This document shows positions 46,908-49,395 of a stretch of 64,000 bases of DNA, one piece after another. Both the position numbers and the translations under genes were made by a program. The DNA is from Thioalkalivibrio sp. ALMg11 (GTDB lineage: Bacteria > Pseudomonadota > Gammaproteobacteria > Ectothiorhodospirales > Ectothiorhodospiraceae): contig NZ_KB898871.1 in the NCBI RefSeq assembly GCF_000377905.1, positions 97,001 through 161,000 on the forward strand. Reading direction: 5' to 3'. A model generated the notes under the pieces. The model was not told the DNA's origin and made no database searches. It saw nothing but the letters and a program-made list of their open reading frames with translations. Position 1 is the first letter of the stretch, and each line of letters begins with the position of its first letter.

Positions 46908-47396
46908 TCAGGGCTTGATGTAGGTATAACCGACGCGTTGCAGGCGGGTGAGCTCGACGATGCCGCTCGGCACCACATCCTCCTCGGCGACCTCGTGCAA
47001 ATCGCCGCGCTCGAGCCCGCGCGACGCCAGCGTGTTGCCGCACACCAGGAAGCGGACATCCTGCAGCTTCAGGGTGTTCACGGTACTGCGCAGGTCCGGA
47101 TCGGTACGGGCGTGCTGTAGCAGACTGATGCCGCTTCCATGAGTCAACACCTTGATTTTGAGCGAGACATCATCGGGGCTGCCATCGATGTGATTCTGCA
47201 GGTTGCGCAGGGCGTTCAGGTGGAGCTCCGGGTCATCGGTGTTGATGTGATAGACCACCCGCAGCGGCTCTTCGGCCGCCGGCGCCTTGGCGACGGTGCC
47301 AATCAATACAGCGGTCGCGCCGCCCGCCGCCAGCATCAACAAGAGCGCCCCGGCCAGGAACCAGCCGGGGCGCAGCATTCGTGGATCGGGTGGCAT
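46908..47396 (-). CDS. Membrane-anchored DsrE-like protein downstream of anti-sigma factor
   Basis: 162 residues. A transmembrane or signal segment (residues ~11-34, GWFLAGALLLMLAAGGATAV) precedes a DsrE/DsrF-like domain: LRVVYHINTDDPELHLNALRNL, the conserved cysteine site DVRFLVCGNTLASRGLE (C119) and C-terminal VELTRLQRVGYTYIKP. DsrE-fold proteins are usually cytoplasmic sulfur carriers with an active-site cysteine; this one is predicted to face the periplasm. It lies 21 bp after the anti-sigma gene and aligns with that protein's C-terminal domain (LRFTACAQTLNRL...EGWIYIKV), so the two are paralogues. Probably sensing or sulfur-carrying; not known. Confidence 0.85.
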   Translation of the reverse strand: MPPDPRMLRPGWFLAGALLLMLAAGGATAVLIGTVAKAPAAEEPLRVVYHINTDDPELHLNALRNLQNHIDGSPDDVSLKIKVLTHGSGISLLQHARTDPDLRSTVNTLKLQDVRFLVCGNTLASRGLERGDLHEVAEEDVVPSGIVELTRLQRVGYTYIKP

Positions 47397-47417
47397 CGAG
47401 ATTCCGGCTGTACCGGA

Positions 47418-48245
47418 TCAGACCTTGATGTAGATCCAGCCTTCCGCCTGACGGCGGGCCGCCTCGGCGACGCCGGAATCGATCAGTTCAGCCTGTGGCA
47501 GGATATCCACCTTCTGGCCTTCCTCGCGCGCCAGACGGTTGAGGGTCTGGGCACAGGCGGTAAAGCGCAGCGTGGGGTAATCCTGCGCCATACTCGCGAC
47601 GCGCTCCGGATAGGGTGCGCTGTCGGTTCGCAGCATGCCCATCGCGTTGTTGTGCACTACCACCTGCACGTTCAGGTCGCGCCCGACCGTGGCCGCCTCG
47701 CGGTACATGCTCTCGATATCGTCCAGCAACTCGCCCATCGCGCGGGTGTCCGCCTCGTTAATGTGCAGCAGAATCTGGTCGGTCTCGCTGGCCGAAAACA
47801 CCTGCTGCGGGGCCGCGGCCCCGCCGGCCGCGTCATCGCTGGCGGCCACCTGCGCCAGGGCCCCGGACGCCTGTCCGGCCGCAGCCGAATGGTCGCCCCC
47901 GAAGAAACCGGAATCGCGAGTGATCTCGTATCCACCCAGCGAACCCACGACCAGCGCGAGCACCCCGGCCGCCACCGACGGGAACCAGGCCGAACGTCCA
48001 CCGCGCGACAATCGGCAACGGCCACCAGTGGTGCCGGCTGCGCGCCCGGCCGGCACGTCCTCGTAGGCCATGTTCACCAGCTCCTTGAGCTGGTGCATAT
48101 CGCAGACTTCGCGGCTCAGGTGCTCATTGGAGGCGATCGTCTTCAAGGTATTCAGGCGGTCCTCCGGCGAAAACTCACCATCCACGAAGGCGTTGAGAAT
48201 CTCCTCGCTGGGCCGATTCTTCGCACTTAGTCGTTCATTCGACAT
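47418..48245 (-). CDS. Anti-sigma factor fused to a periplasmic DsrE-like domain
   Basis: 275 residues. N-terminal ~60 residues (EILNAFVDGEFSPEDRLNTL...EHLSREVCDMHQLKELV) resemble the zinc-dependent anti-sigma domain, but with H42-x5-C48-x2-H51 in place of the usual H-x3-C-x2-C. One transmembrane helix (~87-104, WFPSVAAGVLALVVGSLGG), then an Ala/Gly linker and a DsrE-like domain from ~155 with a single conserved cysteine (LRFTACAQTLN, C231). Its start overlaps the ECF sigma stop by 11 bases, so the two are coupled. This is a classical ECF anti-sigma layout with a sulfur-carrier-type sensor. I know of no described example. Confidence 0.85.
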   Translation of the reverse strand: MSNERLSAKNRPSEEILNAFVDGEFSPEDRLNTLKTIASNEHLSREVCDMHQLKELVNMAYEDVPAGRAAGTTGGRCRLSRGGRSAWFPSVAAGVLALVVGSLGGYEITRDSGFFGGDHSAAAGQASGALAQVAASDDAAGGAAAPQQVFSASETDQILLHINEADTRAMGELLDDIESMYREAATVGRDLNVQVVVHNNAMGMLRTDSAPYPERVASMAQDYPTLRFTACAQTLNRLAREEGQKVDILPQAELIDSGVAEAARRQAEGWIYIKV

Positions 48246-48798
48246 GCCGATTCCTCACTACCTTGAGATAGGGTGTATCGGCCGCTGTCCCCGTGTCGGC
48301 CTGCTGCTCCAGCAGCACCTTCTTCAACTGCGCCCGAGCCCGGCTCAGGCGACTCATCACGGTGCCGATCGGTACATCCAGCACCTCCGAGACCTCGGAG
48401 TAGGCAAAGCCCTCCAGGTCCACCAGCGCGACCACCTGACGGTGATCGGTACTCAGTTCGGCCATCGCCCGGTGGACATCCGCGATCATGCGATTGCGCT
48501 CGGTCTGCTGCTCCGGGCACTCATCGCCGGACAGCTCCATGCTGTCCACATCCACCGTGTCCTTCTGCCGCCGGCCCCAGTCGCGGTAGCAGTTGGTCAT
48601 GATGCGGAACACCCAAGCCTTCAGGGCGTTCTCGTCCTGCAATGACTTCAGCCGGGTCAGGGCCTTCATCATTGCCTCCTGCACCAGGTCATCCGCCAGC
48701 GCGGCATCGTGACACCACGCGAATGCCATGCGGTACATCTGGGGCCGCAGGTCGCACACCTTCTGACGCAGCCTGCGCTGCGCGAACCAGGTCGCCAT
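48235..48798 (-). CDS. ECF-subfamily RNA polymerase sigma factor
   Basis: 187 residues. Region 2 at ~17-81 (MYRMAFAWCHDAALADDLVQEAMMKAL...AWVFRIMTNCYRDWGRRQ) and region 4 at ~107-162 (AMAELSTDHRQVVALVDLEGFAYSEVSEVLDVPIGTVMSRLSRAR) are typical of ECF sigma factors; no region 1 or 3. ATG 48798 has GGAGGA 9 nt upstream and gives the expected length; the frame is open further upstream. It is followed by an overlapping DsrE-domain anti-sigma gene and a DsrE-like gene, so its activity is probably held by the membrane protein until an extracytoplasmic signal arrives. Target promoters are unknown; autoregulation is likely. Confidence 0.95.
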   Translation of the reverse strand: MATWFAQRRLRQKVCDLRPQMYRMAFAWCHDAALADDLVQEAMMKALTRLKSLQDENALKAWVFRIMTNCYRDWGRRQKDTVDVDSMELSGDECPEQQTERNRMIADVHRAMAELSTDHRQVVALVDLEGFAYSEVSEVLDVPIGTVMSRLSRARAQLKKVLLEQQADTGTAADTPYLKVVRNRHVE

Positions 48799-48819
48799 GT
48801 TGTCGATTCCTCCATCCGC

Positions 48820-48837: not shown

Positions 48838-48939
48838 TGCTTGTTCTTGTACCCTGTAGGACGCTACGAGGCGCGGGGCTATTCCGGCCTCTCCACCGCT
48901 CGCGCCGCCCATTCCGGACTCCGGCACTCAGGATACCCA

Positions 48940-49395
48940 ATGCCATTCGATCCGCAACAACTGGAGCGCTCGTTCGCCTTTGACCCCGATACCGTGCGGG
49001 ATCTACGCGAGCGCTGGGCCCGCCTGATCACAGATGCAGTCTGGGGCGAGCTCAAGACCGGCACCATCGGCGCCGTCCCACGCCTGCGCAAGCGCCTGCT
49101 GGAACTCGGCGAAAACCTGCGCTCCATGCTGTCGGACCGCGCCTGGATCCCGCACGAGCGCGAACGCGTCAAGGGTGCGATGGCCGCCAGCCTCAACCTG
49201 CGAGACAGCCTGCAGCAGACCGACCGAGCCGCCAAGCTGCTCAACGGCGGGGCCGACTTCGAAGCCTTCGAGGCCGACTATCTCGCCTTCCGCAAGAGCC
49301 TGCTGACCTTCATCGAGCAACACGAACAGATCTGGGGCGATCTTCTGGAGAGCCTCTACGACGACGCACCAGACGACGACCGGGACGAGGACTAG
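48940..49395 (+). CDS. Unknown alpha-helical protein upstream of GCS2-like ligase
   Basis: 151 residues, predicted mostly helical from its Leu/Arg/Glu-rich pattern (VPRLRKRLLELGENLRSML, RERVKGAMAASLNLRDSLQQTD) with an acidic tail DDAPDDDRDED. No signal peptide, membrane segment or catalytic motif is visible and I do not recognise the family. It lies 3 bp before the GCS2-like gene, so it is co-transcribed and may be a partner or regulator of that enzyme. ATG 48940 begins the most plausible frame; the frame is open further upstream to 48709, overlapping the divergent sigma gene. Confidence 0.75.
   Translation: MPFDPQQLERSFAFDPDTVRDLRERWARLITDAVWGELKTGTIGAVPRLRKRLLELGENLRSMLSDRAWIPHERERVKGAMAASLNLRDSLQQTDRAAKLLNGGADFEAFEADYLAFRKSLLTFIEQHEQIWGDLLESLYDDAPDDDRDED

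Follow-up and report, generated by a model that had tools for sequence, protein, structure and literature searches.

A putative sulfur-responsive ECF26-like sigma unit with a DsrE-fold anti-sigma factor, and its candidate sox promoters in Thioalkalivibrio

Results

Gene organisation of the sigma locus

The DNA analysed here is a stretch of 64,000 nucleotides from Thioalkalivibrio sp. ALMg11 (contig NZ_KB898871.1, positions 97,001 to 161,000; hereafter the window, whose numbering is used), which carries on its minus strand, from 48801 to 46908, the gene of an extracytoplasmic function (ECF) sigma factor, that of an anti-sigma factor and a second DsrE gene. A preliminary description made from the sequence had proposed this three-gene unit, and all three genes were found on the minus strand. 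The features of the locus are the following:

48235..48801, minus strand: ECF sigma factor gene, 188 amino acids, ECF26-like; PF04542 and PF08281 over cut-off; adjoins the anti-sigma gene
47418..48245, minus strand: anti-sigma factor with a DsrE-fold C-terminal domain, 275 amino acids, with the invariant C231; AlphaFold2 (AF2) model, PDB matches and EcfR6-type N-domain
48063..48245, minus strand: N-terminal anti-sigma domain, residues about 1-61, probably cytoplasmic; four helices in the model and a match to the EcfR6 profile
47913..47981, minus strand: predicted transmembrane helix, residues 89-111; helix in the model
47421..47783, minus strand: DsrE-fold domain with C231, residues 155-275, predicted to be periplasmic
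46908..47396, minus strand: second DsrE-family protein, 162 amino acids, with C119, exported or membrane-anchored; Pfam DsrE match of 43.3 bits, and model
48857..48885, minus strand: putative sigma operon promoter GGAATA-N15-GCGTCCTA, kept 5' of the sigma gene across the genus

The Pfam matches of the sigma factor correspond to sigma-70 regions 2 and 4 only. The AF2 model of the anti-sigma factor contained a single helix of membrane length (residues 89-111), the topology being a prediction, and an Arg-rich stretch N-terminal of this helix suggests that the N-terminus lies inside the cell. Structure prediction, proposed as a check in the preliminary description, bore out its two DsrE folds, because both domains had this fold in the models and the nearest solved structures for both in the PDB search were MTH1491 (1l1s) and ST0148 (2pd2); the search with the anti-sigma factor returned matches to its DsrE part only, the other parts being barely tested. 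The second DsrE matched PF02635 with 43.3 bits (cut-off 22.7). The C-terminal domain of the anti-sigma factor gave no PF02635 match at E <=1 and was absent from the 13 PF02635 matches of the own genome. Since it is akin to this group by fold and to 1l1s, and has no PF02635 match, we named it a DsrE-like fold and kept it out of PF02635.

The second DsrE protein had been described as membrane-anchored. A DsrE protein it is, and one that is probably exported; its anchoring became uncertain, as homologues such as those of loci L050 and L092 had apparent cleavable signal peptides at the N-terminus when read by eye. Divergent from the sigma gene, on the plus strand (window 48940-49395), we observed a gene of 151 amino acids with no Pfam match, which recurs in the genus, for example at L024, L032 and L045.

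The sigma operon promoter and the relation to ECF26

When the DNA upstream of the sigma genes of genus and family members was aligned, a single block was kept in all 30 sequences, consisting of GGAATA, about 15 bases and CGTC, and the sigma operon promoter was accordingly written as GGAATA-N15/16-CGTC. A fixed GGAA[T/C]-CGTC pattern was present in 75 of 105 sigma upstream regions, the genus included, at a shuffled rate of 0.009, and most of the remaining 30 showed by eye GGAATA or GAATA followed by CATC. Of 24 same-genus genomes, 22 had exactly one copy of the strict promoter form, invariably just 5' of the sigma gene; the 13 genomes of other genera had none, and the reversed control matched once, in G037. 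The flanks of 27 named loci, 372 kb in all, contained GGAATA-N15-17-CGTC 26 times and nowhere but at the sigma promoter; the remaining locus starts inside the anti-sigma gene, and L080 was left out of the scan. A chance origin of the site was rejected, the first-order Markov rate being 0.0006 per region (<=350 nucleotides) and the flanks having sites only at sigma promoters.

According to excerpts of three reports (PMC3511301, PMC6180224, PMC6527743), sulfite oxidation in Sinorhizobium and Starkeya is under the control of ECF26 sigma factors, whose promoter consensus is GGAAT(A)/CGTC; the anti-sigma factors of this group consist of an N-domain, a membrane segment and a periplasmic part somewhat similar to RsiW. 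The profile of our anti-sigma N-domain matched the N-terminus of EcfR6 of S. meliloti pSymA, group ECF26 (E 9.4e-11 among 198 open reading frames), which agrees with the anti-sigma function first read from this domain; the unannotated pSymA frame was taken as EcfR6 because it lies 3' of a sigma frame and has the printed ecfR6 promoter sequence there. Since both the promoter and the N-domain agree with ECF26, the sigma/anti-sigma core appears to be ECF26-like, a label given from these two features. Where an RsiW-like periplasmic domain is typical in S. meliloti, though not defining, a DsrE fold was found.

Distribution, gene order and conserved residues

Of 58 genomes searched, among them the own one, 40 had matches to the anti-sigma factor, some of these covering the DsrE part only. 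With a profile built from 20 anti-sigmas, 110 of 369 genomes sampled from the class matched, and at least 64 of the 369 were read as having a full-length or nearly full-length anti-sigma factor; these 64 antisigma-positive genomes were hand-read among the matches listed, and in seven of them the match does not begin until model position 29-54. The fetched loci yielded 107 full-length anti-sigma frames; these loci are akin to one another, so that the counts are not independent. The sigma gene adjoined the anti-sigma gene in 105 of 105 judgeable cases (104 directly upstream and one, L123, 263 nucleotides upstream), the other two frames being at a contig end. A second DsrE gene directly followed 37 of the 107 anti-sigma genes, and in 29 cases it lay upstream of the sigma gene in divergent orientation. 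With a DsrE gene beside the pair in 66 of 107 cases only, a universal partnership was ruled out. The nearest named relative found for the anti-sigma factor was in Thioalkalivibrio versutus AL 2 (95% identity), very close records being possibly excluded.

Conserved cysteines had been expected from the preliminary description, and the homologues retained them. Among 91 aligned anti-sigmas (that of the window and those of 90 other loci) C231 and W270 were the only invariant columns, C48 of the N-domain was present in 66, and C119 was kept in 57 of 60 DsrE neighbours (exceptions L037, L038 and L129). In weak local alignments, the conserved cysteine fell on TusD Cys78 with the profile of the second DsrE and with one mixing both kinds, while the anti-sigma profile alone gave no alignment there, and the equivalence of the two cysteines is only suggestive. 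Excerpts of the literature name Cys78 as the residue on which DsrE binds sulfur, and describe DsrE3A as taking up thiosulfate groups from tetrathionate.

In 26 loci there was a further neighbour of 435-538 amino acids (one frame of 290), read from the sequence as an outer-membrane barrel; the one example scanned (L154:8130-9539) matched no Pfam or NCBIfam family, and in 21 loci the barrel-like frame lay beside a divergent DsrE gene. Tandem sigma/anti-sigma-DsrE pairs, with one DsrE downstream and one divergent, were observed in L116 and L117 (genomes G145 and G261), and one soxY locus of each of these genomes (L393 and L392) bears the promoter site. Two genomes of the genus, G011 and G009, have a frame of 86 amino acids that corresponds to the anti-sigma N-domain alone (L181:3977-4237 and L182:3977-4237); the sigma gene was not found in these stretches, of which L181 was the one inspected closely. 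Fifteen plasmid records, from Azospirillum, Runella, Methylosinus, Rhizobium, Pontibacter and Indioceanicola, contained relatives with the DsrE part alone, none of them reaching 80% query coverage. On Azospirillum brasilense plasmid p2 (L400, 2703-4360), a site-2 protease family gene adjoins an exported-looking DsrE-like gene annotated as hypothetical, whose domain is similar to that of the anti-sigma factor.

Putative targets in the own genome

Searches of the own genome (3.04 Mb, 18 contigs) with GGAATAN{14,17}GCGTC and GGAATAN{15,17}CRTC gave 5 and 26 sites, respectively, the reversed controls giving one each. Both lists together held ten CGTC-type sites, six of which precede the genes of the sigma factor, soxA, soxYZ, a rhodanese and a tandem DsrE pair. 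SoxA, SoxY and SoxZ scored over the NCBIfam equivalog cut-offs. Sites other than that of the sigma operon include, by contig and position:

C1:6997: site before soxA, which is followed by two cytochrome-c genes
C1:400255: site before soxYZ
C5:80677: site before a 287-amino-acid rhodanese (by Pfam) with a signal-like N-terminus
C8:110916 and C8:111675: sites before both genes of a tandem DsrE pair
G000:C5:69049 (L398): site about 170 nucleotides 5' of the paired genes for a histidine kinase and a sigma-54 response regulator
C3:323953: CATC-type site before a TauE/SafE gene

The kinase and regulator genes behind C5:69049 are a possible additional target. Among the CATC-type sites the downstream genes were identified for a minority only, and the rhodanese, kinase and TauE sites are known from the own genome alone. 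The barrel-like gene c0, a divergent neighbour in other genera, was rejected as a target here, as one c0 protein matched nothing in 27 of the 28 genomes of the genus, among them the own genome.

Conservation of the site before the sox genes

The soxY gene was present in 27 of 30 genus genomes, and all 27 best loci had GGAATA-N15/16-CGTC 93-114 nucleotides before the start; three further soxY paralogues were without the site. For soxA, present in 28 of 30, the site was found 177-184 nucleotides before the start in all 27 best loci with upstream sequence, one locus being at a contig edge, and two paralogues had none. The spacers had diverged, with a mean information of 0.68 and 0.40 bits as compared with 2.00 in the boxes, a value that is so by construction, yet no orthologous region failed the pattern. 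The site is thus spread at both sox loci throughout the genus sampled. At the tandem-DsrE locus, which is paralogous, it preceded 23 of 23 DsrE genes in 12 genomes, each having one or two of them.

Outside the genus, only 3 of 68 loci, a set that includes some at contig edges, had the site within the 250 nucleotides upstream of soxY. Since soxX comes first in many genera, the count was taken in the 450 nucleotides upstream of the first gene, where 15 of 60 regions of antisigma-positive genomes had the site (12 of 37 soxX-soxY and 3 of 23 soxY-first regions) versus 1 of 23 regions of antisigma-negative genomes (Fisher p 0.034), with Markov expectations of 0.13 and 0.03, respectively; the unit of this comparison is the region, several genomes giving two or three, 7 of 90 sox loci were skipped, and the antisigma-negative loci were hand-picked among the matches listed. 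These same counts led us to reject a sox regulon that is universal outside the genus. Within the class sample, 56 of the 64 antisigma-positive genomes had SoxY, as did 134 of the remaining 305 (odds ratio 8.9; p 5e-11, uncorrected for kinship). The promoter shared by the sigma operon and the sox and DsrE genes upheld the link to sulfur oxidation that had been put forward for the locus. At 33 loci with a divergent DsrE or barrel-like gene, a looser site (first G dropped, CGTC or CATC) pointed towards the sigma gene in 27 and towards the neighbour in 23, the latter count having no chance rate behind it.

On plasmid pOB3b1 of Methylosinus trichosporium OB3b (L401, 804-3843), soxZ, soxB and two exported-looking DsrE genes stand consecutively, an arrangement that by gene order appears to be an independent link between DsrE pairs and Sox.

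Discussion

Proposed mechanism

We consider it probable that the locus encodes a periplasm-to-DNA signalling unit for sulfur lithotrophy, in which an ECF26-like sigma factor is held by an anti-sigma factor with a DsrE sensor. The sigma factor would read the promoters of its own gene and of the soxYZ, soxA, DsrE and rhodanese genes, so that thiosulfate oxidation and its own operon would be induced; judged from the promoter sequences, the pairing of this sigma factor with the shared sites seems very likely. The signal would be a periplasmic reactive sulfur species (thiosulfate-derived sulfane sulfur, persulfide, polysulfide or thiosulfonate) that would modify C231 either directly or via the second DsrE, acting as an RseB-like accessory, and we lean slightly towards sensing by the cysteine. 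The modified anti-sigma factor would then free the sigma factor, perhaps on being cleaved first within its flexible linker and next within the membrane, in the manner of RseA; by this analogy, proteolytic release is put forward tentatively. A bolder and rather doubtful version is that of a carrier recast as a receptor: in the periplasm, sulfane sulfur or thiosulfonate set free at SoxYZ would pass to the exported DsrE and from there to C231, and this loading would free the sigma factor, inducing sox, the carriers and the unit itself. The anti-sigma factor would in that case be, in effect, a sulfurtransferase acceptor, which we hold to be equally doubtful.

Several results weigh against the proposed unit. 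Outside the genus, 45 of the 60 antisigma-positive sox regions were without the site, the antisigma-negative genome G100 has it, and G030 and G034, two genomes of the same family, lack a site at soxY despite having the anti-sigma factor. Nine DsrE loci lacked it as well (those of G018, of six deeper-branching genus genomes, and of G031 and G034, two of another genus). In the own genome, no sulfur gene was found behind 4 of the 10 CGTC-type sites, three of these being within or at the end of coding frames and the fourth being C5:69049. No DsrE gene lay beside the pair for 41 of the 107 anti-sigma genes, some of them cut by contig ends. DsrE3A is given in excerpts as unreactive with persulfide or polysulfide. 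In Starkeya and S. meliloti, as far as the excerpts go, strong matches to the ECF26 consensus as printed were confined to the sulfite-oxidase and sigma genes, which means that sox is not generally under ECF26 control. Lastly, another ECF26-type sigma factor with an unrelated anti-sigma factor could read the sox sites.

Alternative explanations

The last point belongs to an alternative that we regard as improbable, in which the sox promoters are those of another ECF26-type sigma factor and the DsrE unit controls its own operon and a few DsrE genes only. Cross-activation of each other's promoters is described for ECF26 factors in excerpts of the literature, but no second anti-sigma with this N-domain was found in the own genome at E <=1, and the sigma profile detected no second sigma gene in the stretches around the motif sites, no genome-wide sigma search having been made. 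Likelier than this, though still unlikely, is that the wiring is as proposed and the signal is another one, sulfite or a general oxidant or thiol stress, with sox as one output of a protective response. According to the excerpts, ECF26 factors respond to sulfite-generating compounds and drive sulfite oxidases, RpoE4 and SigE being thought to be sulfite-responsive. Arsenite, a thiol poison, raised soxYZXXAB in Tv. thiocyanoxidans in an RNA-seq study in which DsrE/F-like genes also went up or down (PMC6620896, in whose text the term 'sigma factor' is absent), but in Tv. jannaschii the sox genes were stable or slightly down under the same poison. Moreover, the targets identified here are thiosulfate-oxidation genes, and no sulfite dehydrogenase lay behind those own-genome sites whose downstream gene was identified, a set outside which most CATC-type sites fall.

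The other two alternatives concern the DsrE domain itself. It may gauge the loading of carriers, the exported DsrE proteins being Sox sulfur carriers whose empty or loaded form pairs with the anti-sigma DsrE, itself unmodified. DsrE proteins are known to form hetero-oligomers (DsrEFH, TusBCD), and such a gauge would suit the DsrE gene adjoining 66 of 107 anti-sigma genes, the additional DsrE genes bearing the site in 12 genomes and the soxZ-soxB-DsrE-DsrE row of the Methylosinus plasmid; a mere docking domain, however, would have no need of C231, invariant in 91 of 91 sequences, nor does a gauge agree with the 41 pairs that have no DsrE beside them, and we judge it fairly unlikely. That the domain is a structural or dimerising part without chemistry, an unrelated envelope signal triggering the release, seems improbable: domains are often reused as scaffolds, but C231 and W270 are the sole invariant columns in the 91 sequences and the identified targets are sulfur genes.

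Significance of a proposed periplasmic sensor

If the bolder version, with a carrier as receptor, is right, the unit would be, to our knowledge, the first transmembrane sensor of an intermediate of the Sox pathway itself, and the sensor would have been recruited to sox in several families of Gammaproteobacteria. As given in excerpts, SoxR acts inside the cell and thiosulfate oxidation starts in the periplasm, the function of exported DsrE proteins is described as unclear (PMC6620896), and one Thioalkalivibrio species is used in biodesulfurisation (PMC9062515). As of 2019, a genetic system of general use was lacking according to PMC6382920. A DsrE-type periplasmic sensor would be an answer open to direct test, would give exported DsrE proteins a role and might serve as a sensor part for engineering.

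Comparison with known systems

The preliminary description knew of no system with this architecture. Among the open-licence papers listed, no report of a DsrE anti-sigma, or of an ECF sigma factor for sox genes, was found, and to this extent the view stood, whereas the sigma/anti-sigma core has a precedent in ECF26; what is new is the DsrE domain and the putative Sox regulon. RpoE1, RpoE4 and RpoE6 of Sinorhizobium meliloti and SigE of Starkeya novella share with the Thioalkalivibrio unit the promoter, the arrangement of sigma and anti-sigma genes in one operon and a homologous N-domain (EcfR6), and RpoE4 and SigE control sulfur oxidation genes, as is proposed here. They differ in having a periplasmic part described as somewhat RsiW-like and sulfite oxidase targets, in contrast to the DsrE domain and the candidate sox and DsrE targets of Thioalkalivibrio. 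A tentative ECF26 label, 'regulation of thiosulfate oxidation', was given earlier and is cited as being without experimental support in the part seen of PMC3511301.

The gene order of the unit is that of rpoE-rseA-rseB of E. coli, in which a sigma factor, a one-helix anti-sigma factor and a periplasmic accessory follow each other; the E. coli system has no DsrE fold and answers to an unrelated signal, and cleavage of the RseA type is only a proposal for Thioalkalivibrio. With DsrEFH/TusBCD and DsrE3A-TusA the unit has in common the DsrE fold and, by weak alignments, a cysteine at the position of TusD Cys78, but these are cytoplasmic carriers without sigma control, whereas the Thioalkalivibrio copy is fused to an anti-sigma factor and predicted to be periplasmic. 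MTH1491 (1l1s) and ST0148 (2pd2) have the DsrE fold, without an anti-sigma part, and their function is unknown.

Among the regulators reported for sox genes, in the sources as excerpted, SoxR (ArsR family; Hyphomicrobium and others) also has sulfane-sulfur-responsive cysteines, but it is a DNA-binding repressor and not a membrane anti-sigma factor. TspS/TspR (a sigma-54 two-component system beside sox in Acidithiobacillia) and RegSR of Bradyrhizobium are sensor-regulator pairs of a histidine kinase and a response regulator, without sigma/anti-sigma or DsrE parts, in contrast to the sigma factor and DsrE-fold anti-sigma factor described here.

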